Below are positions 9,781 through 53,459 of a stretch of 64,000 bases of DNA, in pieces. The stretch spans positions 2,334,501 to 2,398,500 of the forward strand of contig NC_092323.1 of NCBI RefSeq assembly GCF_036785885.1, given 5' to 3'. Position 1 is the first letter of the stretch, and each line of letters starts with the position of its first letter. The DNA is from Coffea arabica. Its lineage: Eukaryota; Streptophyta; Magnoliopsida; Gentianales; Rubiaceae. The position numbers were made by a program, and so were the translations under genes. The notes below the pieces were generated by a model that was given only the letters and a program-made list of their open reading frames with translations, ran no database searches and was not told where the DNA came from.

Positions 9781-9784
9781 CCGC

Positions 9785-9792
9785 TTTATAAA
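9785..9792 (+). promoter_or_regulatory. TATA-like core promoter of the GTE gene
   Basis: TTTATAAA followed about 45 bp later by a long CT-rich tract (about 9833-9880) that often marks plant transcript leaders. This would give a 5' leader of about 870 nt containing a candidate leader intron (10290-10622, GTAATT...TTCAG) and two TAGGGTTTT telobox-like motifs (10057 and 10166). All by inspection. Confidence 0.4.
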
Positions 9793-17340: not shown

Positions 17341-17346
17341 CGGAAC

Positions 17347-17358
17347 CATATATATATG
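17347..17358 (+). promoter_or_regulatory. TATA-like element of the TLC gene
   Basis: CATATATATATG about 205 bp upstream of the ATG. Between them lies a good candidate leader intron (17470-17551: GTAAGT...ATCAG) of 82 bp, leaving a short spliced leader. Confidence 0.5.
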
Positions 17359-17562
17359 GGCTTGCATTAATTATATATAAATGTAGCATTTCTTCTTACC
17401 GTTCCTGCTAGTACTAAACCTTTCTGGCAATCTCCGCCAATCTTACTCGTAGGTTGAATCGCAGAAATAGTAAGTACTACATAGGATTTGTTTATAGCCT
17501 TTTCTTTTATTTATTTTTTAAAATTTTCGTTGATTAATTAGATTGGATCAGGTTTCGATCGT

Positions 17563-18315
17563 ATGGAAACCCTCTCTACTAGTGCGCTGCCGATGCCAAA
17601 TCTTCCTGTGTTCTTCGCCGTGTATCTGCTGCTTTACTTGATTGCTTACTTCGTCATCTTCCGCAACTGGTCCAGGAATCTCCGGCCGGAAGCGTCGAGC
17701 TGCGTAATTTCACTGGCCCACGGCACTCCCGCCGTGTTTTTAGCCAGTCGCGCCATCCTGATCGATCCGAACCGCAATTTCCATTCCCAGAATACCCCTT
17801 TCCAGAATCTAGTGCTCGATTACAGCATTGCCTATTTCTTGATGGACCTGTGCCATTACTTGATTTTCTACCCAAGAGATGTGCTTTTCATCGGCCACCA
17901 TCTGGCCACTTTATTCGTTTTCGTCACGTGTCGGTACTGCGTGTACCACGGGGCATATGCGATACTGGTGCTGTTGATTCTGGCAGAAATTACCAGCTTC
18001 TGCCAGAATGCTTGGACGCTGGCCGGTGCCCGCAGATCGGACTCGGAATTTGCCGCCAGACTGTACGACTCTCTGTCGCCTCCTTTTTATGCTTTGTACA
18101 CCGCAGCTAGGGCTTTTGCGGGGCCGGTTTTTGTATACCAAATGCTTGCTTTTTATTTGGGTGGGATGGCGGATAATGTGATTCCCAGATGGCTCTGGGT
18201 TTCCTGGATATTTGTTGTTGTTACGGCAATTTCTGTCAGTATATTGTGGATTTCGAATCTTTGGCTTCAGTTGTACAAAGAAATAACTGCAAGGCATGCC
18301 GAGAAAATTAGATAA
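17563..18315 (+). CDS. TLC (TRAM/LAG1/CLN8) domain membrane protein
   Basis: Single-exon frame of 250 residues. It starts at METLSTSALP, then a hydrophobic segment at about 15-34 and further membrane segments at about 84-102, 108-124, 130-145, 180-198 and 208-235. The core DYSIAYFLMDLCHYLIF followed by IGHHLAT (His pair at 112-113) is the signature of the TLC domain. Ceramide synthases (LAG1) share this fold, but this protein is shorter, lacks a Hox-like region and resembles the plant TLC proteins of unknown role near the TLCD4/TLCD5/TMEM136 group. It probably acts in an endomembrane with lipid substrates or in lipid sensing; that role is inference. It lies between the bromodomain gene and a SINE-rich stretch. 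Confidence 0.85.
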   Translation: METLSTSALPMPNLPVFFAVYLLLYLIAYFVIFRNWSRNLRPEASSCVISLAHGTPAVFLASRAILIDPNRNFHSQNTPFQNLVLDYSIAYFLMDLCHYLIFYPRDVLFIGHHLATLFVFVTCRYCVYHGAYAILVLLILAEITSFCQNAWTLAGARRSDSEFAARLYDSLSPPFYALYTAARAFAGPVFVYQMLAFYLGGMADNVIPRWLWVSWIFVVVTAISVSILWISNLWLQLYKEITARHAEKIR

Positions 18316-19356
18316 AGCCTGCAGCTTTTTTTAATTTTTTCCCCACCCCCTCCCCTAATTATGGAAAATTCAGCTGCTCTACTGAAAACTCTGCACTGCA
18401 GTATATTAGCTTCTTCATAACTGTTTGCTGCAAGATGAAAATGAGTTTTGCATTTAAGTTATTGGTAGCAGTTGGACTCAGATTTACATTTCTGCGGTTA
18501 TCAAATTATTGAATCTGCAGTTGGGCCCGCCCCGCTTAATAGAAATAATTTCCTTCCTTGTTAAATTATGTTAGTATTAACATTAACTTAAAAAAAAAAA
18601 GTTATTTTGCCTTGTAGGAATATGCTGATTTGAACTGGGGTATATAATATATATTATATACCCCTAACAGACAATACGCCCAAGTGTAGTAATTTGGTGC
18701 AACGGGATGAACTGGGTTTTTAGTCTTTTCAGCAGCTGGGTGGAGGACAGCGTCCTCAAATTTTGTGCTGGTAGTGCTTTCTTGGTCTTGCATTACACGA
18801 GATGTGTGTATTTATCTTAATGCAGGTTTTGTTTTAAAAAAGTTGTAGTACTGTGACTCACTCAAGTATTCAACAGTGATTGTTGTTGGTGTTTTGCTGT
18901 GTAAGTAAGGTGGGTAGCTGCTTTTCAACTGATCGGAAGTCAAGTTTATTCGTAGCCTTGCTTTGCGATATCGTGGACGACTGAAAGCCCTGACGCAAAC
19001 GTCAGGTCAGACGAGCTCCTTGAGATAAATGAATGGACTTTGATCTTTGCCCAGTTAAAGAAATATCTTGGGAAAAAAAAAAAATCAGGAGAAGGCAGGC
19101 GGCAGGTGAGGAGATGGAAGGATATCTGACGCGTTAAAACTGTATGGCCCTCTGCTTGTGGGTTGGGGCCTTGGGGGGAATTAATAAGTGAATGTGATTT
19201 CTTTTGGTCCCTTGGCCTCCTCAGCGGTTGAAGCCATAAATATCCCCAGGTCCGTGACGGCTAGAATCCGCAGAAGCAGCTGATTATTTCACCCAGTACG
19301 GAACATGGCTCCTAGACCTAGTACAAGGAGGAGCCAGAATACCATCATTTTTTGGT
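18316..19356. other. 3' region of TLC gene and intergenic DNA
   Basis: The probable 3' UTR extends over the first several hundred bases. No further gene or clear repeat was seen, apart from poly-A runs near 18590 and 19073. Confidence 0.5.
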
Positions 19357-19369
19357 GTGATTTACCCTT

Positions 19370-19537
19370 GGCTCCCCGTGGTAGCTCGGCTGGGACTGGA
19401 CGTCTATAGTTACAATAAGGTCTCAGGTTCGATCTCATGTGCTAACGTTGCTGGGTATCTTTGGGGCGAAATTATGTCCAATCTGGGGATTAGTTTGGGG
19501 TGATTCCGAAATGCCTCTCCAGACAAAAAGAAAGAAA
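19370..19537 (+). mobile_element. tRNA-derived SINE, plus strand
   Basis: Flanked by the 13-bp direct repeat GTGATTTACCCTT (19357-19369 and 19538-19550). The body starts GGCTCCCCGTGGTAGCTCGG with a pol III A-box-like TAGCTCGGCTGGGA. A B-box-like GGTTCGATCTC follows about 50 bp on, and it ends in an A-rich AAAAAGAAAGAAA tail. It is 168 bp and looks complete. Confidence 0.85.
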
Positions 19538-19900
19538 GTGATTTACCCTTACTATTATTTTTGGTGCATCAGATTGGAGGAACAGAAGAAACGGATTCTT
19601 GTTCTTGTTCATGGATAGGGGACAAAATAAAATATTGCTTTTTTTAAAAATAACATAAATGGGCTGTGAATGTGTGAGCGTGCAGGTAGTGGCGCTGGTC
19701 TCTGACCCAATGGGATTTAAGCCCATCATGTGATCGCTCATTTCAAAAGTATTTTGTACCGTTAAATTCGTATCAATTTTAGGGGGGGCGAACCGACCCG
19801 AGGCTTGAATTTTGACGACGTACAAGTAAAAGACAATTCCTTGAAATTTGATTGTCAAGGTTACTCCGAATGGGATCCAGCAGAAGCCCTGTCACCAGGT

Positions 19901-20116
19901 TTTTTTTTTTTTTTTTTGACGAAAGTTAGATTAACAAATCTAATCCCAGAAGAAACCTCAAAAGCCGGCAACTTTTGAGATCCTCCCAGAGACTTATAAA
20001 CCCAACCCCAAACCCCCCAAAAATCGATGTGGGCTGGCAACCCCACAAAGGACTTATAAACCCAACCCCAAACCCCCAAAAAATTGATGTGGGATGGCAA
20101 CCCCACAAGGTACCCA
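19901..20116 (-). mobile_element. Poly-A retroposon (SINE-like) with an internal 60-bp tandem duplication
   Basis: The direct repeat GTCACCAGGT flanks it (19891-19900 and 20117-20126). A poly-T run at the left shows minus orientation. Inside, a unit of about 60 bp (GACTTATAAACCCAACCCC...) occurs twice in tandem. No A or B box could be seen, so it may be a 5'-truncated SINE or another poly-A retroposon. Confidence 0.65.
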
Positions 20117-21252
20117 GTCACCAGGTGACATTTGAAAAATATTATTGTGCCTCCAACGGCAGGCAGATAAAAAGTACCCGATAAAAATCAAGATTTGACA
20201 CTTTGGGTTCATTCAACACGTGGGAATCCCCATCAAATGCTGCAAGCGGTTTCGATTCCGCAGTTTGCATACCAAGCTGCGGTCCGGTCCGGTCCGGTAT
20301 CCATGAAATATATTAAATCAGCAGCATGAGGAGAGAGGAGACCCATCAGTCCTTGCTCCTCAATGTCATTGCTTGCCACTTTGACTCTCAGTCATTGAGT
20401 GCATATATTGTAAACCGCTCATAGTACTACCTAATAAACATCAGGTTTGCTTACAAAATAATAATACATAAATAAACATCAGGTTACGTACTTTGACCAA
20501 TTCAAAAGCACATACAAATTAGATGATCAAATCAACGAGGAAAACAACAAATTAGACTAAAAAAGAAAAATGCTACAACCAGTTTTTTATTTTTATTTTT
20601 TTTCCTTCCTTTGGGTTGGAAAATTGGTGGTGTTTGTATTGCAGTTATATATATATATATATAATTCTTACATGTTTTCTGTGAACACATTTCTCATTCA
20701 TCTTTTTATTTTATATGTATCAAATCATTGTAGTATATTTTTCTATTTACATCAAATCGCTGTAGGATGTTTTCCATACAAACTCTAAAAAATAGCAATC
20801 TTCTATTCGAATGAACTGAATATCTTTTATAAGGAATCAGAGGAATATGCGACGATTTTTTCCAGGAAATTCCCAACGACAAATACACACTATGACTTCC
20901 TTTCTATCAAATCGATCATGATCACTGCCTACATTCCAAGAAATTGTGTAGCACCAATAGGAACTAATAAAGAGACCCGCGATTCCGTAGAAAGACATAA
21001 CGATCCCTTATGGAAAAAAATAATTTGTTGAGACGGAAAAGAAGATGGAGTATCAAATTTCTACGAACGGGAACTTTATGTGCTCATTGAAAATGATTTA
21101 GATAGGATAAAGTCAATGAATGGTTTCGATTCACAGCCAAGAATTTCCCCGGCAACTGCAAACTTCCTGATGGAGATGGAAGGTCCTGTTTCCACAAGAA
21201 ACTTTGAACCATTAGGTATGGCTGCTGCTGCAGTGCAAACGTTGCAGAACAT

Positions 21253-21440
21253 TTTTTTTTTTTTTTTTTTTTTCAGTTGGGGGGTATCCGGGACCACCCG
21301 ACTAATCCCACCAACCCCGAGGAGAGCGGGCCCCACCGATCCTCAGGAAAATACCCCAGGCAGCCCAAGCTCGGAATCGAAACCAGGACCGACGCCTTAA
21401 CTAAGGTCGTGAAGTCCGCCCGAGCTGCCCAGAGGGGGCA
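21253..21440 (-). mobile_element. tRNA-derived SINE, minus strand
   Basis: The 17-bp target duplication CAAACGTTGCAGAACAT is at 21236-21252 and 21441-21457. The left poly-T is the inverted A-tail. On the minus strand a B box GGTTTCGATTCC follows an A-box-like GGGCAGCTCGGGCGG. It is GC-rich against AT-rich surroundings. The long open frames here on both strands are by-products of this GC-rich insert. Confidence 0.88.
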
Positions 21441-22250
21441 CAAACGTTGCAGAACATGAGGTACGTTTTGTTGATGACAACTGTAGGGTAAACTTTTACA
21501 TGCTTTCACCTTAAATTCATGCTTGTTATGGATAAGAAAAAAAAAAATTAAATTAAACTTTTCTTGCAGTAAAATCTGAAGTAGTAGTACTACTTTTTTA
21601 TTACTATAACCACACGAGCACCAGATTAATAGTTACATTACAGGATGTCCCTCCCTCATCTAAAGGAGCAGTCAGCAATCAGCAGCTACACCAAGCGCTG
21701 AAACCTCATTTATGCTAGTCAGTTTCGGCGAATTTCAGTTACCAAATGTAATTAATTAGGATGGTCCACCAAATAATTTCCTTCCGTCATTCAAGAAAAG
21801 GAAAATGCTATTATCAAAAAAAAAAAAAAAGAAAAGGAAAAAGGATGCAGAAGACGACGAAGAAATGCACATCCAGTGGGCCCATATGGCAGTAGTACTA
21901 CTGCTACAACTAAGGAGAATGGCGTTGTAGTGTGAAAGTGTGGGCGTTGACTGAGAGGACCTCTTCGTTGGTCAAAGTCGTCGCTGGTGTACTTTAATTT
22001 ATTCTGAATCTTCCGCACAATTTTTTGGGTTTGGATTCCGTCTCCGCTCTCCTCTCCAGGCGGGGGAATGCCCATTCAATATTTCAATTCCCCCACAGCC
22101 CACAGCCCACTTGCTCTGCTGAAACTACACTTGCAAGCAAGCCACCCACCATGACTATAGGTGGCAAATCAATCCATTTAATTAAATTTATTCATATTCA
22201 TTCATGAATAAATGGGTATGAATATCTTAAATTTTTATATATGGGTATAA

Positions 22251-22303
22251 ATGGGTTACCCAATAATATCCATTTATTAAATGGGTATTATTGGGTAACC
22301 CAT
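22251..22303. repeat. 53-bp near-perfect palindrome
   Basis: Two 26-base arms (22251-22276 and 22278-22303) carrying ATGGGTTACCCAATAAT are inverted, with one mismatch and a single-base loop. It sits in an AT-rich stretch with several ATGGGTA/ATGGGTT words (22210-22325), probably the remains of a MITE. Confidence 0.8.
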
Positions 22304-23038
22304 CAAATCCAATTAACCCATTTAGAATTATTTTCCCCCAAATCACCATTTTTTTTTCAGATTTTTCATTTTGTTATGATGTTAACTACTTTGTAACTTT
22401 TGAAAATGACAAACCTCGTAGAGGCTAAGCCAGGGAGTTTGGGGCAGTAGGAACCTATTTCATTTCACTGCGAGCGAGCGAGTGAATACGTTGATTCTAT
22501 GTAAACCTTGGGTTGGGGCGGGGGGCCAAGAGTAACATGGCTTTCATGTGCAATAGGGGGCGCTGGGTCAGTCTCCAACGCGAAAATGCTAAATAGAGCC
22601 GCGGTTGATGATCAATTCATGGATACGGATCACCGCATTTTTTGTTGTCAATGCGTCATGGTCCATGACGCATCGACAACTTTGGACTTTTGGCTTTCTG
22701 CAGTTCTGGGGAAGCGACAGGCTGCCAATGACTGCTGGACCGCTAGGGATAGCGAGCTATTTAAGTAAATTTATCTGTTCATATCATTAATATATATATA
22801 TTTTTTTTTTATTTTAGATACATTAATTATAAAATGTAACTAGTGACCAGCAAAGTTATTTTTTATCCGTGAAAGTTGACCTTTCCTATATAAAGTTGAC
22901 CTTTCCTTCGCTTATGATACACATAATTTCAAAGGCAGAAATGAGAAATCAATCTTTCAAGTTCCACATGTCCAAGATGGATCCACAAATTCGGCCCCGG
23001 GCGGCGGGCTAGGAGGATGCTTAGTGGCGGCACTGTCT

Positions 23039-23246
23039 TTTTTTTTTTTTTTTTTTTTGTCGACACAGGGGTGTCCAGATCAATTCTTACGGGACCCCAC
23101 TAATCTCCTTGCTACTCGGGCCCGACGCCTCAACCCGGCCCGAACACGTTAAGTGCGCGGAGGAATCCAGCGGAGCGGAGACTCAAACTTGTGATCTCAA
23201 GATTCACTGGTGAGAGACGCTGCCGCTGGACCATTCACGCGGGAGC
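23039..23246 (-). mobile_element. tRNA-derived SINE, minus strand
   Basis: The 17-bp target duplication TAGTGGCGGCACTGTCT is at 23022-23038 and 23247-23263. Poly-T at the left is the inverted tail. The minus strand has an A-box-like TGGTCCAGCGGCAGCG and a weak B box (AGTTTGAGTCTC). Length is 208 bp. Confidence 0.87.
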
Positions 23247-25064
23247 TAGTGGCGGCACTGTCTGAAATTAGTAATTTGATGTTTCAAAAAGTTAAAATAT
23301 TCGTCCAATCAAATTCAAATGCCGCCAACCAACTTGATCCATGTCCCCACTTCACTTTGCAATAACAAGCACAGACACATTTGAGAGAGATTGGTATTTT
23401 ATAATTATCTCAACAGAAAATGCAATCCCGACGTGCCTCAATTAACTATACAACGAGTTTTTCAAGTCGGCCTTTTCAAAATCGGCCACAAATTCAAAAG
23501 TCAGTAGTGTATTGAGGAAAGGGAAAAATAATTCTCTTCGCTTATCGAACCAGAATAAATAAGCAATAGAAATGTGCCAGTAGTAGTAGTATTCCTTCCG
23601 TTTCCTGCCGACCTCAGAATTATACACATGCGTCTTTAGTTTTCATCTACAAAACCAAAAGGTCTCAATGAATTCTCAATCAAGCAAAAGATCCGCACCC
23701 CCCCCCCCCTTTGTACAGTACAGTGTGCGCTGCCCCAATTACGGAGAAAGGCATGGTGTGCCTGTCGTAACAAACTTTGTGCTTAAACCACTCACAGTTT
23801 TTTTTTTTTTTTTTTTTTGGAGTAATTACGAATGCTTGGCGACTTTGTCAAGGGAAATAATGACGCTTATGTGATCAAGCATATCGATTTCATCCAAATT
23901 TAAAATATTTAATTTGGATGTCACATAATTGACTAGGTAGCAAGATAACATCCAGTGACGTCTAGTTGCTCTCTCTCTCTCTCTATATATATATGCGTGT
24001 GTCCGTATACATACATATATATATATATATATGTTTTCACAAACATTTTCTCTCTTTATTGTAATTTTCGTATTCACAAATGTTTTTCACACAAAAATCG
24101 AAAGACTTTTATTCGTGAAATAGAACAACAAAAACATGTTCGATAAACTTTTCCTCATTATATATATATATATATATATATATTTTTAGAGTAAATATTA
24201 TATGCACTGATATTATATATACTATCACGATTAGATGCATGATACATATACAAAATTTGAGTTTCATATTCAAATTCGAATTATATATCATGCATTCAAT
24301 GGTGAAAATGTACATACTGTTAGTGTATGGAAGATTAATTCATTTTTTAAATAATATTGTTATCTTACTAGAAATAGAAAATCAATTAAAAAAATAAAAG
24401 AATTATAAAGCACCACCCTCTCACTGTGTTACATAGATCTGCAAATTTTCATTAGAACCCAACATGAAATACCCAAAACTGAGATTCAAAGAAAATAGAT
24501 TGGTTGTTAAATATATAATTACATAGTATGGCGTTGGATTTTTGTTAAATTTTTTATAATGTAGTTCGGATCGACTCAAATATTTTAATATCTCCCATTA
24601 ATAATTAATCCTTATTTGTTCACCCATTCTATGGAAATAATGGAACATAATACAAATGAAAAAGGTGATTCTAATCTCATATACAAACTACCTACACACA
24701 AAACCAAAGAGATCCAGATTAGGCTGTTCTTTTTTCATTTCAATCTATACACACATTTTTCACCCAAATCAAGATTCTGCGAACGTTGAGGATAGCACCT
24801 CAATCTTTTGTACCAATGTAAGAGGGACTGTAAATCATAACTGGAACACTTAGGCCAATAACAAGAACCATTAAATTTTGTTGAATCGCCTAGCTACAAC
24901 TGTTTTTTTTCGTGCTTTAATTAGTTTATGACGTGCATAAGTCAGTACTTGTTAGTTAATTTGCAGATAATCTCCCAGGAAGTTACTCATTCATCGCCTC
25001 AAATGCATTTTTCCTATAATTTGCAACAAAATACGTTGAAGTCGGTGTGTTTGACTAGGAGATT

Positions 25065-25215
25065 ATTTGGGATAATCTTTTAAGAAATACTGTAATACTT
25101 TTTTTTATATATAATGTATGTGAAATAAACAGGTAATTAAAAAAATATGTTGATGATGCAAACAGGTCAATATTTGTAAATAAGGTGTAAATAATGTGCA
25201 ATCCAAATAAATATA
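25065..25215. mobile_element. Complete MITE spanning the inner boundary of the right arm
   Basis: The ends GATTATTTGGGATAAT and GTGCAATCCAAATAAAT are imperfect inverted repeats, and the body is AT-rich. The inverted-repeat boundary (25100) lies inside it. This suggests that the right-hand arrangement is ancestral and the left arm is the derived copy. Confidence 0.6.
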
Positions 25216-25539
25216 TCTTTCACTATAATTACACGATTAAAAAAGATTTTCTCAATTCATTTCCCCCCCTTCATTGTCTCCCACCAGTAAAGGGCGTCCA
25301 TTCATGGCTTCCACTGATAGACACACATTAGACCCGAAGGTCTAAATTTTCGGTGGATGTTTGATTTTCCACGAGTACCGGATAAATTTTCGGTAGATAT
25401 TTAATTTTTCCATAGGTTAAATATAATGATTGGATTGCTTTGATGTTAATTTTCCTTTAAACCTAAAAATTGTCATTTTTACGTATTTTATTATACTCAG
25501 GCATAAACATAGGCAAATCAAAAGAATTAAAAAAAAATA

Positions 25540-25918
25540 TGCTTCCTCCGTTTCACTTTGATATTTTTATTTTTATTTTTTATTCTTCCCAAATATAATC
25601 CACTTACCAATTGAACAATATTGTTAAATTTTAACTTATATAAAATACCCTTATTTAATGTAAGTTGTTATCAGTTATATAACCTACCTTATTCATTAAT
25701 TGCTTTGATTCATTACCTTGAATAGTGCAACTTAATTTCCATCAATTTTGTTGTTGTTATTAGTGTAAAGATATAATGATTAGTTATATTACTAATATTA
25801 ATGTAAGAGTATTTCAGAAAAATAGTATGCTAGATTTACTCTTCCAATAAAATTAACTAAATTTTCTTAAACAGCGTGGGAAAAAAAAATCAAGACTATC
25901 AAAGTGGGATGGAAGGAA
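25540..25918. mobile_element. Mariner/Stowaway-like MITE in the right arm
   Basis: Mirror of the element at 6047-6425, with the same ends and TA flanks. Confidence 0.7.
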
Positions 25919-26658
25919 TATTTACATAAGTTATTGGGCTCAGGATGAAATAAATAATTAAAATGTTCCTCACAATTTACCGGGTCACTTTTTTACCGGG
26001 TCTTTTTTCCCCCTTTTTATAAAACTAATTATAGTATATAATAAATGGATGTTGATCCATCGTTTTCTTTCACTGTAACACTACAATTTTGTGTATATGG
26101 TAGATATCGTATCCAAGATGATGTGTTGCAACTTTGCTCCAAATGATTCTAAAACTAGTAAGTATACCACCAACTAAATGCGTGTTTGATTCATGAACTG
26201 GCGAAATATTGTTCACTATCATTGTGCTAAAATTGATATTGATTCAAAAAATTAGTAAAACTGCAAAATTTGGCCAGCAGGATAGGGATCTCCAATTAAC
26301 ACAGTACTATAAAAAGATCCAAGCTTGTTAATTATGGTTTACAGGTAGATAACACACGCTAATTACCCAAAAAAACGTGGGACGGCAACGTGAGCTGCCG
26401 GCCAATTGTGAGTATGTATGGTTCCAGGAATTTTCTTAAGAAACTACACATACTTACTACTAGTATATAGTATTATACAGCTCAAAAAACAATCACTTGC
26501 CTTCAATGAAGACCTGGGAAAGTCAAACAAAAACGTCGTCTTCACTCTCTCCCTCTCCACAGTTTACGTAGAAGATATACTCAGTAGGTAGGTGCCGTAG
26601 AGGAGGGAGGACACTCTGGATATTCATTGTATATATCTACATCCATCCACTTTTTGTT

Positions 26659-26672
26659 CATATATAAATATA
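26659..26672 (+). promoter_or_regulatory. TATA-like element of the right LHT gene
   Basis: The stretch TATATAAATATATA lies about 230 bp upstream of the LHT ATG and is the best core promoter candidate. Its mirror copy is at 5293-5306. Assignment is by position and composition only. Confidence 0.5.
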
Positions 26673-26899
26673 TACGCCGGAGGTTTCCATAGATTTCCTC
26701 GTTCGTATCTACTGCCGTTTTGTCCTTCCGAACCTCAGACTGCTGCCTCTCTGGACTCCTCCTCCTTTGTAACACAGGTGTAATCATTTCTTCTTTTTTT
26801 GGGGGGTTAAAAGACAAGCGAGGAGTTTCGTATTGTGTCCGGCTGTTCTTCGTCGGTTGCTCATCTCATCTCCAAGCTTTCTAATTCCTCCGCATCATC

Positions 26900-29800
26900 A
26901 TGGGAACTCAAGCTCCAACTGATCATCTCCACTACGACGACTCCAAAACAGTAAGTCACGCCCTCTCCCTCTCTTTCTCTCTGTCAAACGCGCACAGGAA
27001 CTCCCCAAATCCCCCCGTGCATATTTGGGATTTGACCGTCCCTGACGTACGTTAAAAAAAGTAGGTATTCTTTTTATTTCCTCGAACCTTTTTTTGGTTG
27101 ATGGAAAATACTAGTACTACTACTACTGTTATTAGTGATGCATGGTAACACCCCTGTAAGAATTTTAAAAGCTTTTTTTGTTCTCGTCATGCATGATTAA
27201 CTCAAGTAGCAGCAAAAATGGTCCCCGGACAGACGCCTATGGCGAAGTAAAGATGAGGAGGTAATCAAGGGACCTGGAGAAAATTGATTCTTGATATTAT
27301 TATTACTGTTAAGCTTAGAAGAAGTTAGGTACCGCCAGTAATAATCTCATCTACGTGGTCATTAATTAGTTTGGAGTGCACCTGCGTGAAAGAAATATTT
27401 TGAAAAATGGATCGATGTAGTTCCTTCAAGACTTCATTCTATCGCAAGACAAGCTTTAATTACATCATGCATTCATATGATTGAATAGTAAGGAAGGGTC
27501 TCCATTTTGAATGATCGTAGTGAAATTTAACCAGCTGGCGTCCAGTAATAATATCCAAAGCAACTGTAATTAGTAATTACCCCCATATATATATATATAT
27601 ATGTATGTATTGAAGAAGAAGAAGGAGAAGGATAAGAAAATGTGGCGTGCCAAACTGGCCGCTGGACAGTGGGGTTCTCGTGACAATGACGATAACAATT
27701 ACGGTCGTTGACTGGGTGAGTTTAGAGTTTAGGATCTCACCACATGGCATAGGCGTTTGGTTGGCTACAAGTCAAGTGCGGAACTTGGACCCATTGCTGG
27801 TGTGGTGTGTTTGACTTTTCAGAGTAGGATTACGTAGCTCTTTTAAACTATGAAAGTTGAAAGTTGAAACCAAAACCCCAACCCTTTTTCATATTTCAGC
27901 TTCGGGTTCTTCATGTCTCGGTTACACGATATTTTGATACTTGAAAAAATGATGAAAGTCAATATCTCCACAATTGGCGGCACCCATGGTTGTTTCTATG
28001 AATCTACTTCTTCTTTTATTTATTTATATATATTTTCAACATGCTGGTGCTAGCGGTATTGTTTGGATTGCATTTTTTTAAAACTTTTTATAAAAAAAAA
28101 CATTGTTGTGATTTGACATACATGGAATAAAAAGTTGATTGAAAAATGTATTTACGAAAACGTAGTAATTTTTCAAAGACCAAACAAGGCCTAAGCAATG
28201 CCCTTCTTCCAAGGATTTCATTGCTTCTAAGGTCCAACTTCCCATGTCGGTAACTTTCTTCCTTGGATTTTCGTGATACTCCTACCAATGACAGTGGACC
28301 GCAGCATTCATAATTCATAAAGTAATACACATGAATTTCTACGTTTATTTCCCCTTTACAACTAGTCCTCACTTTCCATAATTAACTAGCGGTGTGTACG
28401 CGTATACTTTCGATAGGTTTATTTTTCTTTTTCATCTATTTTAAATTATAATTTATTTTTCAATAAAAAATATAGTTAATTTATAATTTTTTTAAAAATG
28501 CACTTTTTCTAACTAGTCACAGTCTATTTAACAGAAGGATATCTTATGAAAGTATTGAACTAAATTTATTTTTTTAATAAAATTAACTAATTTCTTTAAA
28601 TTATGTGAAAAAAAAATCAAATTGATCAAAGTGGAACGGACGGAGGAGGAGGAGAGGGAGTACATTAAATAATGTATCAGTCCCAGTTAACAAGTGTCTT
28701 GCGTAGTTTAAACAAATTCATGAATAAGAGTTGCTTTCAGCTCCGTCGAAGCCTTACTGGGAACAACGGTATGCGGTTCCGTTCCCGTCGTAGTAAGTAG
28801 TAACTGAGCAGGACGTCGGGATGATTGGGAAGGTTGCGGTTGTGGGCTTTAGGCCTTCGTCGTTGCGTGCTTGGCATTCATTCACTTTTTTGGAATCATG
28901 TGTGGCTGGCTCAAAGCGTAAAACTTCCAAGAGTCTTGGAAACTTTTTTGTAAAAGTGGGAGTGGTGGATACTATAATCATTATTGTCGTCCAGCCCACA
29001 ATGCATCGTCCTCTTGTCTCTGTCCACCGAACTGTGGTGTTTTGTTTTGTTTCGTGTCAACCTAACTATGGTTCTGTTTTGACGTCACCGTCAAAAGGTG
29101 TATATCAGTCTAGTTCTTCTTTTGGTAATTACACATCTATTAAGTTCTACCGTCGATTGTTAAGTTGCGACACTTTTTGGCCTCCGGTTACCAGCCCACA
29201 CCAACCCCACCCCTCCAAAAAAAAAAAAAAACTGCGCTAGTAAATATGGAATTAGAGAGACATTCTACTTATGGCTAAATTTGCCCATCAAATTTATGGA
29301 TAGGCTTTGTTTCTATTGGATTGCACTGAAGCCAGAATTTTTTTTAGTTAAAAATGATCTACTGTAACATGGCTCCACGCTTATTTTGAAACAATGCTGC
29401 AATATGATTTGAAAAAAACATGATTTTTTTTTCAGGTGTCTTTTTCCCCACATTTTCCTCAAATTTTCTTCTTTTTCCTTTTTGTTTGACAATTCTGAAT
29501 GAAATTCAATTTGAAATTTATGAACGAAAAATTATGCGGAAAACTACAGGTGGACAATCGAACGGCTGAAGAGAAGGCAATTGATGAATGGCTTCCTATT
29601 ACGTCCTCAAGGAATGCAAAATGGTGGTACTCGGCCTTTCACAATGTCACTGCCATGGTGGGAGCTGGAGTGTTGAGCTTGCCTTATGCCATGTCCAAGC
29701 TTGGATGGTAGGGTTCCTTTTCTTCTGAGTATTTAATCTGGACTTTTGGGTAGTGTTCATCTTATATAACTCCTGTTACTTAGGATGTAGAATAGTCGTA

Positions 29801-31467
29801 CTAGTAGAAATCTTGATCCTAATCTTGCTGGTGGACTGACAAGCTTTATGTACGATCATCAAAAAATTTTTAGGGGGCCTGGAGTGACTGTAATGGTCTT
29901 ATCTTGGATTATCACTCTGTACACCTTATGGCAAATGGTTGAAATGCACGAAATGGTTCCGGGGAAACGTTTCGACAGATATCACGAGCTAGGCCAGCAT
30001 GCTTTTGGTGAGAAACTTGGTCTCTGGATTGTAGTACCCCAACAGCTAGTGGTTGAAGTGGGCGTGGACATTGTTTACATGGTTACTGGAGGGAAGTCAT
30101 TGAAGAAGTTCCATGACTTGGTCTGCTCAAAGCCTTGCAAAGATATCAAGACTACCTACTTCATTATGATCTTCGCCTCTGTTCATTTTGTGCTCTCCCA
30201 TCTTCCAAACTTCAATTCCATCTCCGGTGTGTCTTTGGCCGCAGCCGTCATGTCATTGAGGTATTCCCCCAGCGTCATCTCTGGTTTTTACTGTTTTTAT
30301 TTTGATTCTTAAGCGGTTGCAATGCTGACGTGACTGTGTTAATATGTAGTTACTCCACCATTGCTTGGGGTGCCTCCGTGAAAAAGGGTGTCCAACCAGA
30401 TGTGGAATATGGCTACAAAGCTACGACTACAGCAGGAACACTTTTCAACTTCTTCGGTGCCCTGGGAGATGTAGCTTTTGCTTACGCCGGTCACAATGTT
30501 GTTTTAGAGATTCAAGCCACCATCCCTTCTAAACCTGGGAAGCCTTCCAAGGTGCCCATGTGGAGAGGAGTGGTTGTTGCCTACATAGTTGTGGCATTGT
30601 GCTATTTCCCGGTTGCTTTTATAGGGTACTGGATGTTCGGAAACAGTGTCGAGGATAACGTTCTCCTCTCATTGAATAAACCAACCTGGCTAATTGCGAT
30701 GGCTAACATGTTTGTCGTGGTTCACGTAATCGGAAGCTATCAGGTAAGGAGGCTCTCCTCTCTGTTGATGTAGTTTTGAGCAGCTCATTTTTCACGAGGT
30801 TGTTTGGCTAGGACAGCACAACCGTGATATCTGTGGACTGTTTTGATTGCAGATTTATGCGATGCCGGTTTTCGACATGATTGAAACTGTGCTCGTCAAG
30901 AAATTAAGATTCAAGCCCAGTTGGACGTTGCGCTTTGTTTCGAGGAACATTTACGTGGGTAAGTGATGGCATTTGATTGTTTTAGACCTTCTCCTTGGAT
31001 TGAAAGTTGCATTGAAGTTTGATAGGGATGTCTTGACTGCAGCTTTCACAATGTTTGTTGGTCTCACATTCCCATTCTTCGGCGGACTTCTTGGATTCTT
31101 TGGAGGCTTTGCTTTCGCCCCAACTACATACTTCGTGAGTACCCTCTCAGTATGGGCCCTTTTTCTCTTTTCATCTTCCTGCTGTATGGGTCTGGTCTGC
31201 TAAATCCATCTTTTCTGCAGCTCCCCTGTATCATGTGGCTTGCCGTCTATAAACCGAGGAGATACAGCTTGTCTTGGATTACAAACTGGGTACGTGCAAC
31301 TTCGGACTCTTGAAATCGTAGGGTTTTAATTATAGAAATTTGAAGCTGATCTAACTTGGTTTTGGCAGATTTGCATCATACTGGGAGTCCTCTTGATGGT
31401 TATTGCGCCAATTGGAGGGCTAAGACAGATCATACTTGAAGCGAAGACCTATAAATTCTACTCGTAG
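26900..31467 (+). CDS. LHT1: LHT1-type lysine/histidine (amino acid) transporter, right copy
   Basis: Exons 26900-26950, 29550-29707, 29874-30260, 30350-30743, 30853-30958, 31043-31134, 31221-31289 and 31369-31467, all with GT-AG borders, sum to 452 codons including TAG. The start is the ATG in ATCATCATGGG, about 230 bp downstream of a TATA-like stretch. Residues about 35-70 hold the [19 protein letters not shown] block that opens the first membrane segments. The [18 protein letters not shown] loop and the C-terminal LRQIILEAK segment are typical of LHT proteins in the AAAP family. The family imports neutral and acidic amino acids with protons, for root uptake and mesophyll loading. The gene converges on the PES-ankyrin fusion gene with about 680 bp between stop codons. 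Confidence 0.92.
28055..28191. mobile_element. MITE, TTGTTTGG-type, in LHT intron 1 (right copy)
   Basis: Mirror of the element at 3774-3910, identical because it lies in the inverted repeat. It was therefore present before the arms became two. Confidence 0.6.
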
Positions 31468-32149
31468 AGGCAGAGCAGCTTGCCTACAGCGAAGGATGTA
31501 GTGATATAGGTAAAAAGGAAGCAGTCAGAACTCAGAAGAGCGTCAGCTTCGCCATGGAAGCAGTCGACGGGTGGGTGGGCTCATCACTAGTCATGGCGGA
31601 ATAGGAATTCCGAATTCATACTAGAAGCAAGTATAAAGATGTATTGAAGTGCTCTTTTGAGTAAAAAAAAATTCATGCTGGTTTGGTTAATACATACATC
31701 CGCGGTTTTTTTTTTAGTGTGTGTGTGTGTGTGTGTGCATATGTAGTATTTTCTTGTGATCCTTTTGGAGTGTATGATGCATTGGTATAATATGGAAAAT
31801 TGCTCATACAAGTACAGTGTTCACAATCAGTTCATATAAATTTCACGCAGAGCCTCTTATATGAACAGAATCAGCAAATCAAGCAAAGCATGTTTACATT
31901 ACCTTCTTAAAACAAACAGAATACATTTAAAGGCACAGAAGAATGTACACTATTTTTTTTCCTGGATCAGGGCCTAAAACCAGCGAGAAACTACTTCTTC
32001 ATCGACCAAATTCTTCTACATATAAAGCAAAACATGTCATGGTGAGCCAATTTCCAGTTACGAGAATTGCCCGCCCAAAACATTTAGGCCACCCCTGCGT
32101 TCTCTACAAAAATCACCAGGATTCAATAACCTCTTTGTCTACAAGTCAT

Positions 32150-35100
32150 TTACAGAACAGCACGTTCATAAATCTCGTATGGCTGTAGTCCACTGGAAGT
32201 AGGAGCTTTTGCAGATTGTCCTGGGCCACCAAAACATAACAACTGGTTCATCAACTTCTTATTGATTGGCCCTAGTTTGGGAACTGCACTTGGTGATCCA
32301 TCACCATCACCGATCTGTCTGGAGCAAGAAGCTCCTGCTATATCATTCTCAATTTGTATACCTTTTTGTTTATCCAAAGAGCTATGCGAGGAGAATGACG
32401 ATTTCGAAAATGAACTTGACCGTGATCGACGAGATACATTGACACTGGGAATTCCCTGCATCACACCATGCACTAGACCAGAAGCGAGTTTCTTCTTTGC
32501 TGATGGACTTGGAAGGTTACTCCTTACCGAAAGAGTTCGCTTGTTGTTCGGAAGTGATGAAGGCCTGGAGAACCTCTGCCGCAGAGGAATTGGAGGTCCT
32601 TCTGAGGGGCATATAGAATGTTCACCCACTGATTTTTTGCATCGATCTGCCCTTTTGTCTTTCATCTTAGGCCAGTGAAGCAGCTGTTTTAGCCTTCGTG
32701 CTGCATAGCTTACAGTGTGTAGTTTCTTTCTTTTTGTTGTGCTAGAGGTCTCCAGACTCGAGTCATGGTGGTTTGTCTCGGTCGAACAAGGGCTCAGGCC
32801 TACACTACCACCTGCATCTGAAATATTCTCAATGCCGGTATAAAGGAATATTTCCATGTCAGAGGTCCTGAAGGAAGTTCCAGGACTACCTCCAATACTT
32901 CGCATTCTTAAATGGGATGCAATTGCTTTTCTTGTTGAGTAGTCCTGACAACTGAAGATTCCACCTGCTGATATCAACTGTTTGGCCAGTATATCAGAAG
33001 ACACAGAATGTGGCCGTTGCCTCAGAATATCAAGAGGGGTCATTCCTTCCATATCACGAATATTGACATTGATAAAGCGAGCATTTGAAGGAAGTTGGTG
33101 TTGGAGTTGGGCAAGTCTGAGTTCAGACTCTTCAAGTTTTGTCTCTTCGTGTTTTTCCTCAACTTGTTGGGACCCAGACAAACCGATATCTTCGGAGTCC
33201 AATTTAGAAGCTTTAGAATTGGCATCAAAGTATCTTGACAAAGCATATAGATCTGCACAAATTTAGAAACAAAGAAAATACAGTATCAAGTTTTCATGTA
33301 TTAACATGCAGAGTAAACCAGCTCTAGCCAACCCATTCTACAAAAGTAAAATATTCTCCCAATTGACTTCTAAGGAAATATTTATGAGAAACTGAGTAAG
33401 GGTAAATGGAATACCGGCTGCCAATGCTTCCAAGCGAGAATCCAGAATTGGTGGATATTTGACATTTATTGAATGATAAAGTTTGAAATTAACAAAAGCA
33501 AGGAGAGTCTGCAACAAAAAACAAATAAAAATAAGTATTGAAAGAAATTAAGAGGAAAACAGAAACAGATGAGTGGAAAATAAATCTTCACTGAGTCTAC
33601 AATAAGAGGGAGATAAGTCAATAAAAATGGATAAGGCGTGTGAAATTGATTAATTTGATATGAAGATTTTGCACAATATGATGTGCCTATACAGTTCAAG
33701 GAGGTGCACTCAGGCTAAAGTGGGGCAGTGCCATGCTAGTACTTTGCCATAATAAAATGAATAAGGCATGAGAGAATACAATTCGGTGACAGAGTAAGTA
33801 ATGATTCTTCAGCAGTGTTATCTAATGACAACTGTCTCTAGGAAAGCTTAAAATTTGAGACTCTGGCCATGTCTCCAACTTCACCCATAAAAAGTCATGC
33901 TTCATAATTGACACACATCACCTGTTTTGAAAAAAAATTATATTTTGGCCCTATATAAGGTTAAGCAAGTGAGTCTGCAAATCCTGCAGAAAATACCTAA
34001 GCTAATTTTATCTTCTAATCTTCATGAAAAAAGAAGAAAACAATTACCACTCTTCACCCTGCAAAATTCCACAGAGACTGGACACTGAATGTATGTAAAA
34101 GAAAAATCAATCATGAAACCCAACATCCACTAACCTCATAGAATTCCAGGAAAGTCAGCATCACTTTGAAGTCGACGTCATCTGGCAATACTTGCTGCAA
34201 TGCATGAGGAGTTAACCAAGTGACCTTTTGGCCCTCAACCTCTGCCTGCAGAGATCATTGCTCTATCAATGTCTACCAGAAAAGGACCATATACCAGGAA
34301 TTCAGACTAGAAGGAAAGAAGACCAGAAGAAGATATACCTGGTAATATATTCCCTTTACAGATATGAAAGTTTTCCGAAGTTTATGAGTGCGAGAAATAT
34401 AAGCCTGCCATTCATGACTCAACCTAATCCATACCGAATTAGAATATCCGATAAGTACAAGAGATATGAAGTAATATCAAGAAATGTTCAAAAGCTGTAA
34501 ACTTAGTCTCACAAATATTATCTACAACAATCAAAGTAATAACCTTCGACAATTATGAATACGGTCAACTTGAATGTTTTCCCTTTCGACCCTCTGAATA
34601 GCAGGCAATGCAGCAAAGAGGTGAACCATACTGAGACAATCATCCAGATCACGTAGTGCATCAATGAATTTTGGGTACCTGTACCCAAGCAGTTATAGAT
34701 GCCCTTTTTCAAGTACCTCAACTAAGCAAGCACAAAAGGTTGCAACCTCAAAATTTATGCCATCAACCAACCTCTCTCCGATAAGCCTATCTAGTGTGTA
34801 TGAAGGCTTGCGGCTCAATAGACGCTCAGCAAGATCTCGGTTTTTCTTTGACTGGGCTTTCTTGACCTTCTTCTCATACGCCCGCATCTCTCTTAACTTC
34901 TCAAGTAGGGGCTCATGTTTCAAGAACAGAATATCTTTCATGTGATAATAGGTGTGGTGGGATCCCTTGACCTTCTTCTTGGGGTCTCGGGGAAAGACAC
35001 CTTTGAGGATGCATAATTTCCTGTAAGGATGAACCTTAAGTACTAAAATCAGTAATCCTTTTTTACCATGCAAAACAAGCTGAAGTAGCTAATGCTCATG

Positions 35101-35609
35101 GAACCCCTTTTCTACTGCTTATGTTGCTACAAGCTATACACGTGCAAAGCTTTTTCTTATAACTTCCCTCGTCTATTAGATGCATTTTCACGATGGAAAT
35201 TTTCAGAAAATGTATATACAAGTTGGTTGGCCCTAACACTGTGGAAACAATCAAAGAATCTTTATCTTGTTTGCTTCACGGGAACTTTTAAAGGGCAAAA
35301 TCCCTTGTCAAAAGCAATTCTCAAACTAGCTAAACCAATACAATCAGATGCAATTTGAGCTAAATAGTAAATCGTTAATCAGATGGAGGGGGAAGGCACC
35401 TGAAAACTGATAAGCTGACTTGGAGATATTTGACGGCTTGTGACCTTGTAACATATTTTGCAGCGTTCCCCTCCTTTTTCTTCCCCTGAAAACGGACGGA
35501 ACATGTCACAGAACTTGGCAGTCAAATGAACTTCACTAAAACAACAATGAGAGAAAGACAATGAGCCGGGTGGAATTGAACTAACCGGAGGTCTGTAATG
35601 CTTCGGCAT
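32150..35609 (-). CDS. Chimeric gene: Pescadillo N-terminal half fused to ankyrin-protein C-terminal half
   Basis: Exons (minus strand) 35586-35609, 35400-35485, 34772-35020, 34544-34678, 34339-34423, 34135-34245, 33415-33508 and 32150-33252 sum to 1887 nt, 628 residues, with no stop. Residues 1 to about 318 are a well-kept Pescadillo N-terminus: [28 protein letters not shown], the [11 protein letters not shown] basic stretch and [13 protein letters not shown], ending at [13 protein letters not shown]. There, at about 33083 in the middle of the last exon, it switches to [20 protein letters not shown] and a basic Ser-rich tail ending YEIYERAVL. This tail resembles the C-terminal part of plant ankyrin-repeat proteins; that match is from memory. 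PES works with BOP1 and WDR12 in 60S ribosome assembly, and its BRCT domain is missing here. The fusion may be expressed from the PES promoter, but its function is unknown. Confidence 0.85.
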
Positions 35610-36877: not shown

Positions 36878-39800
36878 ATGCAGAACTTCATAGCTCAATC
36901 GTTCTTCCGAGATATCAATTCCAGAGAGCTCAACGGATTCCGAGGTTCGCTTAACCGCGGCAGAGTTTTTTTGTTTTTTTGTTTTGCCTTTTTCCTCCCT
37001 CTAATTGAAGTTCTCTGTAGTTTTAATTTTAATGTTATTTATTTTTCCCCAGTGAAGAAAAGACCCTATATAGTGGATGAAAGGCCGGAATCAAGCCAAC
37101 TTGGAGCCGTATCTGTCGAGCACAATGGCAAGACTTCACCTCCAATGGCTCTCTCTTTTTGCAAGGTTAATAATCCATCGCTCGAAGTAATCACTACACG
37201 ATATATGTGTGTAGTAAGCTTTTGAATTTCTTTGTTCTTTTTATCTAAATATTTTAAAGAAATTTTAATATGTCCTCAATTTTAAGAATGCAGAGTAATG
37301 AAAACGCTCATATTCTAGCTGTTACGGATGAGGCAGGGTACATCAGCTTGTATAATACTCGCTTAAAATTTCCATCTTCTTCAACTTATCAACAGAATAC
37401 AGGTCGGATAAATTTTTTTGCCTAGATGTTGTTTGTGTAATTGAATTAAACTTTAAAAACTTGTCAAGTATTGATTACGACTTACCTCTGCAGAAAAATG
37501 TAGAATTTTGGAGTGGGTTGCCCATGATAATGCCATTTTTGATATTTGTTGGATCAAGGTATTTTTTTTTTCTCTTGACTTTCTTCCAATTGAAGTCGAA
37601 TCAGCAGATTTTTATGAGTTCAATAGATTATAATCTCCCATAAAAGTTTGTCTACGGGTCATGTTTTTTTACATGGGAATTGCTGCCAATTTGGGATTTT
37701 TTAACTTAAAAAATATGCATCTTATGTTTTGCAAATTGGCATTGCGATTTTACTTCCATCACAAGTTCAGTCTTGATAGCTTTGACATAATCAAGTTTAG
37801 TGTGCTTTACGGTTGCAAACTTGCAGTTGCCTAAAGTGGTTTCTGTGATAAGTCAAATAAAGAGGGGGCGGACGGGGCAGTAGTAATCAATAACTGGCAT
37901 TATAAATTTAGAACATCGCTGAGAAATATTCTATAGGTTAAAACGTGGCAGGCAAGCATGGCCTGTTTGTCATTTGCCTCTTTCATTTATTCAAGCGGTA
38001 ATAACCATGATTGCTTTCTTTTCAGGACGATAACAGAATATTGACTGCTTCAGGTGATCAAAGTGTGAGTCAACAAACTTCAGATGTAGTTTCTGCTCTT
38101 GGTTGTTTACATGGAATGCATATTTCAGAGAAGCTTTTCTTATATAGTTTTTTCAATTCACATTCTGGCTAATGCTGATAATAGCATGAAGTACGAAGAT
38201 TCAAATGTTATACCATGCATTAACAAGATATACACACATTCATATAATCTCGTCTACATGAATATGTAAGAAAACGCACGAAATATGAACCGCCTGACAA
38301 ATGTAAATTGAGCTGGAAGAACTTGTACATCTTAAACCCAAGATGATGGATGCAGTTCTGCTCATTTATTGATTATACGGTAAATTATGGTTTTAACAGA
38401 TAAAGGTGTGGGATGCACAAAAAAGGAAATGTGTTGGAGCATTGATGGGACACACAGGAAGTGTGAAGACCATTTCTTCTCATCCTACTAATCATGGTAC
38501 AATCATGACTCATACTCATGTTGGAAATGTTCGTTTTCCTCCAGAAAAGATGATCGAAATTTCTAATTAGCATATTTTGGTGTTGCTATCGAACAGACAT
38601 ACTTGTATCGGGTTCACGAGACGGGTCCTTTGCTTTGTGGGACTTGAGGTGTTCTGAGAATAGCAGCCACAGACTAAGCATATCGTAAGATCTGCATCCC
38701 TTCATGCTTGAGGAGGTTATAGTTGTTCCTTCACAATCTAAACACTCTTTTTCAGCTTAGTAGGAAAACTGGGAATTCATGTCATTTGTAGGCTGAACAC
38801 ATTTGGAACTATATGGAGTTTGCTATTCTTGTAGAATAATATCCATTGAAAAGGAGAAAATATAACGTAATTACCCAAAAGGGAAAAAGGCTCAAAGCTT
38901 ACTAGTGGACCTCCCTCTCTGTTTTATTTATAGGTCAGTTGCCACTGTCCATGAGGCTCATGTATCTCCCTGTCGGAGGCGGCTTAGGCGGAGAAAGGTT
39001 TGTTCTCAGTTCAAATTTGTTCATCCAAAATGCTGGTAATTTTTCCCTTAATCCTTCAATTTTTTTTTTCAGGCTGCCTCGATGAGCATTACATCCGTTC
39101 TCTACTTGAGAGATGAAGTTTCCATTGCTACAGCTGGAGCAGTTGACAGGTGTGTGAAACTTTATCATTTCTCCCAAAAGTTGATATCATTATAGAACTC
39201 TACTTTAGGCTTTGAAATTTTACTGGGTAGTTATGTAAACTTTCAGTGTTTTGAAGTTTTGGGATACGAGGAATCTCAAAAGGTCGGTTATCCAAACCAG
39301 CTCTCATCCAGATACTTCTGACGAAAAGGCAAGTCTTTACATGCAGCAGGGATGGTCAGAAATATATTGTTGATGCTGACTGACACTTCTTTTTTTAACT
39401 CAGGAGAGGCGATTGCATGGAGTATCTAGCTTGTCTCAAGATCTAAACGGAGTGTATATTTCAGCCTCATGCATGGACAGTAGGTATACTTCTGTTCTTT
39501 GACTATTATACTTGTTTTGGAGCAAAAATTTCACGCCTTATTGACTATTTTGATCAAAGAAAATCCTGGAAATTATTTACAGCTCCCAAATGAAGCCTTT
39601 CAGTTAGTTCAGATTCTGAAGTATTGCTCTTTCAGGATATACCTTTACAGTATACTTCAGCTTGACAATGGCCCTGTGAAAACTTTCTCTGGATGTCAAA
39701 TTGACTCCTTTTTTGTTAAGGTAAGCAGATTTTGCAGTACTCAAATGCTCAATACTTTAGGATATGAACCGATGTTGGGCATGCACATAATTTTCTGAAT

Positions 39801-40663
39801 GTGTTGCAGTCATCAATCAGTCCAGATGCCTCTCATATGCTTTCTGGTTCTAGTGATGGAAATGCATACGTTTGGCAGGTTAGTATTCTCTCTTTAACCA
39901 GGACCCTGTAGATTTTCTGTCTATGATTTCATTGAAGTAGCTATTTGAAGCAGGTAAACAAGCCTCACCTAGATCCAATGTTACTGAAAAGCCATGATGG
40001 AGAAGTTACTGCAGTGGATTGGTATGTTTTATGAATGTATTCTGAGCTTCAACAGAGATCCCTTTTGGAAAAGGAAATAAATTTCTCATAATTTCTCCAG
40101 GTGCCCTTCAGAGATGGGGAAGGTAGCAACATCTGCAGATGATTTTACAGTAAGTATGCAATAAATTGGTCAGCAAAAAAACTTATGAAAATTTGAGTCT
40201 CCATTAGAACCAATTATAAACTGCTTATGATGCATCATTGCTCTTTGTTGCTGGAAAAGCATCTCAAGTTTCTTCGGCAAATTGGTTTCAGGTTCGCTTT
40301 TGGAACATCCAAGGCTGTTGCTACTCAAACTCAAGATCTCCTTCATCCATTCGAAGAAGAGTAATGGCAGTTCCAAGTATAGAACGGAAAAGGCTGTTTA
40401 TCGATGAAGATTTAACTAGTTTGAAAAATAACTCTGAAATCTGCCCCCAAGGTGCAGTCTCCAATATTCATTCTCCTAAACCAACCATTGCCTCAGAAAC
40501 TACCACTCCTGAATCCCAAAGGAGTAGATATTCATCAAATTTCAGATTAAAGGAAAACTTGGATAAGACTCCAGAAGCTGCAAGTAGAAGCCCCTCTTCC
40601 GTTCTGAATCCTCCTTCGTCGTTGAAGAGAAGAACAATTAGAGACTATTTTTTGGTAGCTTGA
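36878..40663 (+). CDS. CDT2: CDT2/DTL-type WD40 protein, CUL4-DDB1 substrate receptor
   Basis: Sixteen exons: 36878-36944, 37053-37165, 37294-37402, 37494-37558, 38026-38064, 38400-38496, 38597-38684, 38934-38997, 39073-39149, 39247-39328, 39404-39483, 39636-39720, 39810-39878, 39954-40021, 40101-40149 and 40292-40663. The total is 1524 nt, 507 residues. WD repeats run from about residue 40 to 390 (IKVWDAQ, FALWDLR, LKFWDTR, AYVWQV, VRFWNI). LWDLR and FWDTR are WDxR motifs used for DDB1 contact. The long loop [14 protein letters not shown] between repeats is typical of CDT2. The protein ends [12 protein letters not shown], a PIP-box-like motif. CRL4-CDT2 destroys CDT1 and other PCNA-bound substrates in S phase, in the nucleus. 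Intron 10 begins GC (AAG|GCAAGT) instead of GT. Confidence 0.9.
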
Positions 40664-45658: not shown

Positions 45659-46727
45659 GTATGTTGAACCCCATTCTTTGAAAAGTCTATAGTAAGTACA
45701 ATTCTAGATATGAAAATCGAAAACCCGTGATTCACAATTTTATGCATCATCAGAAAGATTTTAGACAACTTCGACATGGTAGATGAGGAACTCATTCATC
45801 TACGTACACACGCTTTCTAATTTACCCAAAAAAAAGAACACATTCATTTTTATATGTACATATATATATATATAGTCGCTGGGCGAGTCTTAATGTTTTT
45901 GAGTGTGCTTATTTAACATCGAAATTGAGGATCCCCTGGTACATTGCTCGTTCACTCGAGAGTTCAGTATCATGAGAATTACCGGACTGGAACTCAACAG
46001 GAAAAAGATAGGGTTTCCCCAAAGTACAAAGCGAAGGACTGACTTGAACTTTTGCTGGAAAACGGTTCTCTTCTTAGGTTTTGATGAACATTTTGACCAA
46101 ATTCAAGAATCAAAGATGTATGGATAGGTGGTTGGAATTGTTTATCTGCACGCATCTAATATACATTGGGAACTATAACATGGAGAAAGTAAAATGGGAC
46201 AAACGGTGCCAGAAACGAACATTAGATGCCTCAAAAGTCAACAGAACGAAAAGATAAGGAAGAAGACTTCTGCAGGCCACATAATCCGAACTTACTACTA
46301 ACACATACTGCTACATTTTATCCTCTCTTTTCTTAAAAGTGTGATCTGACCATGTCAGTCTCAGACATTGCTTTCAGTCCTTTAAACAATTTTTTCCCTT
46401 TGGTTTTCCAAATTTGCAATTCTGCAACCATGAATGATTACCCATTTTTCATCAGGGCATCGTACTGTCACTGCTGTACCAGTAAAAGAAAATCCCGATC
46501 ATATTGCATGGTTTCGGATGGATTTTGTGACAAAACGGATTATATAATGGTTAGGAAAAAGAGAAAAAGAAAATAATCCCATTAACTTATTCAATCTCAG
46601 AAACTTGCTTCATCTTTTTTATCCAACCCCTAGAGCATATTTGATCAAACAAATAGCAACAATAGGAAAAACCAACAATAACAAGACAAAAATCTGATGG
46701 ATTCATGTGCAAGTATTGGCAGCAAGG

Positions 46728-47249
46728 ATGGCTTCTTCCAGTTACTCCAATTCTCCTTGTGCTGCCTGCAAGTTCTTGAGGAGAAAATGCCTGCCAGGTT
46801 GCATATTTGCTCCATATTTCCCTCCAGAGGAGCCGCAGAAGTTTGCCAATGTGCACAAGATATTTGGAGCGAGTAATGTAAGTAAGCTGCTCAATGAAAT
46901 CCAACCTCATCAGAGAGAAGACGCGGTAAATTCTCTTGCCTATGAAGCTGAGGCACGGTTGAAAGATCCGGTTTATGGTTGTGTTGGAGCAATCTCGGTT
47001 CTCCAAAGGCAAGTTCTTCGTCTTCAGAAGGAGTTAGATGCCACGAATGCTGATCTAATGCGATATGCAAGCAATGAAATGCCACAAGGATACCCAGGCA
47101 ACAGTGGCTCGAATCAGATGGGGAGACGGATGAATAATGCAGATAGTTCCTTCGGTCAGTATGAATATCCATCTCCTTATTATATGTCATCATGGGACAA
47201 TAGCTTCTCAGGTGATCATCCTGATAAGCCTGGAGACAGTAACACATGA
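46728..47249 (+). CDS. LBD25: LOB-domain transcription factor (LBD25/LOB class I)
   Basis: Single coding exon of 173 residues. The start is ATGGCTTCTTCC; an upstream GTG in the same frame is not a likely start. The LOB domain occupies about residues 8-112: the zinc-finger-like CAACKFLRRKCLPGC (CX2CX6CX3C), the GAS block FANVHKIFGASNVSK and the leucine-zipper-like coil VLQRQVLRLQKEL. The sequence ARLKDPVYGCVGAISVLQ with TNADLMRYA is closest, from memory, to LBD25, with LOB itself next. Class I LBD proteins bind DNA and control organ boundaries, lateral roots and photomorphogenic or auxin responses. The C-terminal tail is polar and not conserved. Confidence 0.9.
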   Translation: MASSSYSNSPCAACKFLRRKCLPGCIFAPYFPPEEPQKFANVHKIFGASNVSKLLNEIQPHQREDAVNSLAYEAEARLKDPVYGCVGAISVLQRQVLRLQKELDATNADLMRYASNEMPQGYPGNSGSNQMGRRMNNADSSFGQYEYPSPYYMSSWDNSFSGDHPDKPGDSNT

Positions 47250-53352: not shown

Positions 53353-53459
53353 AGCAACTGCTTACTCGAGCCGCTTCTCCACTCTATAGTCTGTAATCCA
53401 TCATCGCCTCTTCTCATCATTAAAAAAAAGCTCAACAATCTTATCATTCAGAGCAATCG

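Follow-up and report, generated by a model that had tools for sequence, protein, structure and literature searches.

Pescadillo (PES, PES1 or Nop7) is a subunit of the PeBoW complex. In the available part of its description the wheat protein has 596 residues, with the PES domain at 9–277 and a BRCT domain at 339–417 (PMC8574815). According to the accessible text of two studies, PES1 needs its BRCT domain for PeBoW entry, nucleolar localisation and rRNA processing (PMC10386641, PMC4992165), and C-terminal deletions of PES1 (446–588) enter the complex and act dominant-negatively (PMC4992165). An excerpt on Arabidopsis reports that silencing of PES leads to developmental arrest (PMC5014167). Fusion genes, in turn, are common in rice, where the portion of a survey open to us gives 310 of them in four species and the intron loss of retroposition in only 2 of 69 expressed japonica fusion genes (PMC9199173). 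Among the plant ankyrin-repeat proteins, one tabulated entry places At5g14230 as the match of a maize ankyrin repeat family protein (PMC3118180).

Here we describe an eight-exon gene model which joins the N-terminal half of Pescadillo to a foreign tail. It lies on the minus strand at 32150–35609 of a 64-kb window, i.e. the whole stretch of plant DNA that was analysed, which does not contain a single N. Checking of splice sites and translation gave 628 codons followed by TAA (coding sequence of 1887 nt) without any interruption of the frame, and all seven introns have GT–AG borders. The exons were placed at 35609–35586, 35485–35400, 35020–34772, 34678–34544, 34423–34339, 34245–34135, 33508–33415 and 33252–32150. 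The uninterrupted in-frame fusion of 628 codons proposed in the initial annotation was thus borne out, as was the assignment of seven exons and the beginning of the eighth to the PES N-terminus.

This PES-derived part (33083–35609, minus strand, residues 1–318) was delimited by tblastn, the splice model, PDB and Pfam. Its residues 10–278 match Pescadillo_N (PF06732) at E 8.4e-115, covering positions 2–268 of the 273 in the family, so the N-terminal domain is nearly complete and occupies the same position as in the available description of wheat PES (9–277) (PMC8574815). Five distinct Pescadillo sequences from PDB match it, four of them near full length and the fifth being a 104-residue fragment; the best one, 8esq_n, aligns with residues 9–265 (E 2.6e-78). 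Using three of these five, all non-plant, we counted 124 invariant residues in 252 aligned columns, and 97 of them are kept in the fusion. At the remaining 27 positions an approximate Arabidopsis PES sequence shares the residue of the fusion 14 times; in 5 cases it has the residue of the non-plant proteins, and in 8 yet another one. Its identity to the fusion amounts to 231 of 308 aligned residues. By this test, a weak one, no obvious decay of the PES half is seen.

What the fusion shares with Pescadillo is the N-terminal domain, aligned to solved Pescadillo chains. It differs by having neither the BRCT domain nor the PES C-terminus, in place of which an unrelated tail of 310 residues is found. 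PF06732 was the sole family reported by Pfam, with no BRCT at E up to 1. The tblastn query, the approximate Arabidopsis PES sequence, did find the N-terminal half, but at E up to 10 no match to the PES C-terminus was obtained in the whole 64-kb window. The layout given for wheat PES in the accessible text (PMC8574815) places the join, at residue 318, in the interval separating the PES and BRCT domains.

The tail (310 residues and the stop codon, 32150–33082, minus strand) was characterised by Pfam, PDB and frame analysis. It begins with a weak ankyrin-like repeat and continues as a serine-rich stretch with basic clusters (KRKK at residue 435, for example); the tail as a whole has 16.5% serine and is probably disordered. 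No Pfam family was matched at E up to 0.1 over the tail, and none at E up to 1 for 64 of its residues. The first 91 residues of the tail gave 134 PDB matches at E up to 10; most of the best 60 are designed ankyrin proteins, whose alignments lie near residues 4–33 of the query and reach at most residue 52. The lowest E value, 1.2e-05, is a sum over several repeats of the target, none of which is significant singly. Comparison of the designed-ankyrin consensus with the window yielded 41 rows, of which only 33070–32981 is plausible (E 0.13), all the others having E of 5 or more; a complete ankyrin gene was thereby looked for in the window and rejected. Judging by these alignments, the tail appears to hold about one ankyrin-like repeat of roughly 30 residues rather than an ankyrin domain, with one repeat-like stretch and no Pfam family where a repeat array would be expected. 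The initial annotation had spoken of an ankyrin-protein-like C-terminus; the name "ankyrin" is too strong for this half. The tail may represent the C-terminus of an ankyrin-repeat protein of plants, with At5g14230 or a relative as the likely source. It resembles those proteins in the weak ankyrin-like repeat that follows the junction and differs from them in having neither an array nor a Pfam ankyrin match; the family link is putative. Relatives of the tail and of the PES part of exon 8 were sought in viral contigs, and relatives of exon 8 in genome contigs, with no confirmed hits; as these are virus and prokaryote collections, the result has no weight for plants.

Both halves meet inside exon 8, with no intron between them, at the boundary of codons 318 and 319 (33082–33083, minus strand), as placed by tblastn and the splice model: the codon of residue 318 (N, AAT) has its last base at 33083, which is also where the tblastn match to the approximate Arabidopsis PES query stops, and residue 319 (A, GCT) begins at 33082. 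The intron-free junction near 33083 had been noticed correctly from the sequence in the beginning. Since the PES half keeps its introns and the join lies within an exon, the fusion must have been made at the DNA level, and the earlier suggestion of a genomic event within exons is supported. The gene has the features of a DNA-level chimera, namely a join within genomic exons, retained introns and an open frame. An intronless parent copy, as expected for a retrogene fusion, is not seen in the PES half with its seven introns; the tail is a single exon piece and taken alone could not exclude retroposition. The young fusion genes of rice, as far as the available text describes them, likewise join two coding parts in sense and in frame with introns kept; the present join differs from them in adjoining a perfect large inverted repeat (PMC9199173).

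On the tail side of the junction one frame stays open over 310 codons, and stops close the other two after 13 and 8 codons. Once two coding exons meet in the same sense, an in-frame join is a one-in-three chance, and by itself it is weak evidence. The openness of the frame weighs little also because the fusion was singled out for being open.

Downstream of the fusion gene lies the perfect inverted repeat, a part of the surroundings absent from the initial annotation. Self-comparison and string identity showed that 25100–31964 (plus strand, right arm) is the exact reverse complement of 1–6865 (minus strand, left arm) over 6,865 bp, with 0 mismatches and 0 gaps. The left arm is cut by the start of the window, so that the visible outer end of the repeat is the window edge and the full repeat measures at least 6,865 bp; the right arm may extend toward the fusion junction. 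From the last base of this arm that can be seen, the distance is 186 bp to the fusion stop codon and 1,119 bp to the junction, and the outer end of the repeat may coincide with the junction. Each arm carries a transporter gene. The right-arm copy (26900–31467, plus strand, ends set by eye) is convergent with the fusion gene, and its two joined reading frames match PF01490 at E 7.1e-65; the exact copy in the left arm runs from about 5065 to 498 on the minus strand. We regard this gene, in both arms, as a putative LHT1-like amino-acid transporter. The arms are separated by a spacer of 18,234 bp (6866–25099), in which Pfam recognised a bromodomain/BET reading frame (10642–11970) and a TLC-domain reading frame (17542–18315). 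At the inner boundaries of the repeat (6866/25099) the DNA is AT-rich, with a run of 7–8 T at the breakpoint.

With 0 differences over 6,865 sites the 95% upper limit of divergence is 4.4e-4, which at assumed rates of 7e-9 and 2e-9 per site bounds the age at about 31,000 and 109,000 generations, respectively. The duplication, if real, is thus probably at most some 30,000–110,000 generations old, a bound that gene conversion would relax. The repeat and the junction are probably products of one event, in which case the open frame of so young a fusion could not yet show selection.

Our leading explanation, which we hold with about even confidence, is that the gene is a real and very recent chimera formed by DNA rearrangement in the plant genome. 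A segment comprising the LHT1-like gene together with the 3′ exon of the convergent gene next to it, the latter encoding at least one ankyrin-like repeat, would have been copied in inverted orientation. The far end of this copy would then have been joined to exon 8 of the PES gene, or of a partial PES copy, in frame by the one-in-three chance. In such a case the fusion would retain the 5′ exons, start codon and upstream DNA of PES, whereas its stop codon and 3′ end would come from the other gene. The intact eight-exon model, the nearly complete PES domain and the perfect repeat ending near the fusion stop speak in favor of this course of events, and we also counted for it that the PES 3′ half was not found in the window and that fusion genes abound in rice (PMC9199173). 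Against it, the outer end of the repeat lies beyond the window edge, so that its identity with the junction is something we infer, and copies without a single difference are equally expected from an assembly error.

Two simpler rearrangements were rejected. Had the inverted segment simply been inserted into PES, or had the spacer been inverted by two staggered breaks, the 3′ half of PES would be expected at an inner boundary (below 25100 or above 6865); the tblastn search with the approximate query, run at E up to 10, found it nowhere in the window. The lack of this half at the inner boundaries leaves either a more complex event or a wrong assembly. If the assembly is correct, more complex template switching would have joined a partial PES copy.

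A faulty assembly is a substantial possibility, though one to which we give less than an even chance. The assembler would have placed the LHT1 segment a second time, in inverted orientation, and misjoined it at 33083 to the true locus of PES and its CDT2-like neighbour; PES would be full length there and the fusion nonexistent. A duplication of 6,865 bp with 0 mismatches and 0 gaps is what such an error would leave, homopolymers included: the arm contains 10 of them of 8 or more nucleotides, together with 2 dinucleotide runs (9 and 10 units), and none of these differs between the copies. The failure to find the 3′ half of PES beside its own 5′ half also points to a misjoin, and the developmental arrest after PES silencing reported in the excerpt cited (PMC5014167) means that, unless the join is false, a full PES copy is to be expected at another place. 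On the other side, the window holds no unresolved base, and no repeat within it overlaps 33083, an observation that covers the window. A join of exon to exon in matching sense and frame would seldom come from a random misjoin as well. A random real rearrangement, however, gives such a join just as seldom, hence the geometry does not separate the two explanations. Under the recent rearrangement, a full-length PES should exist elsewhere in the genome, as we infer.

The plant origin of the window is judged from its intron-bearing genes and from the presence of plant families, LOB and oleosin for instance. A denticleless/CDT2-like WD40 gene (36878–40663, extent set by eye) is divergent from the fusion gene, with about 1.27 kb between its start and the start codon of PES. 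Its hand-spliced pieces match PDB 9c5t_A, a denticleless protein homolog, at E 8.4e-30, and the frame at 40220–40663 ends in what is presumably a PIP-box-like motif. Farther on, Pfam recognised a LOB-domain frame (46698–47249) and an oleosin-domain frame (53424–53969). Self-comparison also revealed diverged local direct repeats, about 81–94% identical, at 55308–55716, 56690–56984 and 62309–62596.

Capture of gene fragments by a transposable element, a Helitron or a Pack-MULE, we consider highly improbable as the origin of the fusion. A replication-factor-A-like fragment is present in the spacer about 110 bp past the inner end of the left arm (PF08646, E 7.5e-07, 29.5 bits with the cut-off at 28.5), and at 7813–7839 a 5-bp hairpin precedes CTAG, itself followed by T at 7840, an arrangement that we assume to be a Helitron-like 3′ end. 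The whole Helitron-like stretch (about 6974–7839) lies, however, outside the repeat arms, and at 33083, the point of contact of the two exons, no end of an element was recognised.

It is also quite unlikely that the gene is an established functional chimera older than the repeat, i.e. a PES-type N-terminal domain with a new tail maintained by selection beside a normal PES gene. Its 628 codons with neither stop nor frameshift, the clean splice sites and the invariant residues kept in the PES half would fit, and many rice fusion genes are expressed according to the accessible text (PMC9199173). But any fresh join is expected to be intact too, a duplication of near-zero age lies beside the junction, and the lost BRCT domain is needed for PES1 function in human cells, as stated in the available parts of the sources (PMC10386641, PMC4992165).

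Returning to the recent rearrangement, its predicted product may be considered. The stop codon lies in the last exon, and such a transcript is not a target of nonsense-mediated decay; decay of the mRNA is hence not expected, if the gene is transcribed. By analogy with animal PES1, a protein with the PES N-terminal domain and without BRCT should fail to join the complex of PES, BOP1 and WDR12. The C-terminal PES1 deletions which act dominant-negatively reportedly retain BRCT. As this domain is needed for PeBoW entry, the BRCT-less protein would, on the same analogy, more likely be inert than a working PES or a dominant-negative form. We regard as unlikely the stronger version, in which the promoter and N-terminal domain of PES acquired a foreign tail through the inverted duplication, and the in-frame protein of this newborn gene is produced and in part engages the PES–BOP1–WDR12 machinery or competes with it.

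No report of a Pescadillo–ankyrin fusion of this kind was recognised by title or beginning of abstract in the literature searched, which mostly excludes subscription journals, and the novelty of the pairing is therefore not established; chimeric genes formed via inverted duplication were not found there either. In the available text of the wheat PES study, Pescadillo and ankyrin genes are separate loci (PMC8574815).

The fusion, if real, belongs to the already known class of chimeric genes. Should it be an artefact, it would mean that an assembly can acquire an intact in-frame fusion next to a segment duplicated in error, and that any perfect inverted repeat in the vicinity deserves to be checked first. 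If the junction is real, the locus would offer a datable coding fusion born of a complex inverted duplication, with the structure of its breakpoint apparently undecayed.
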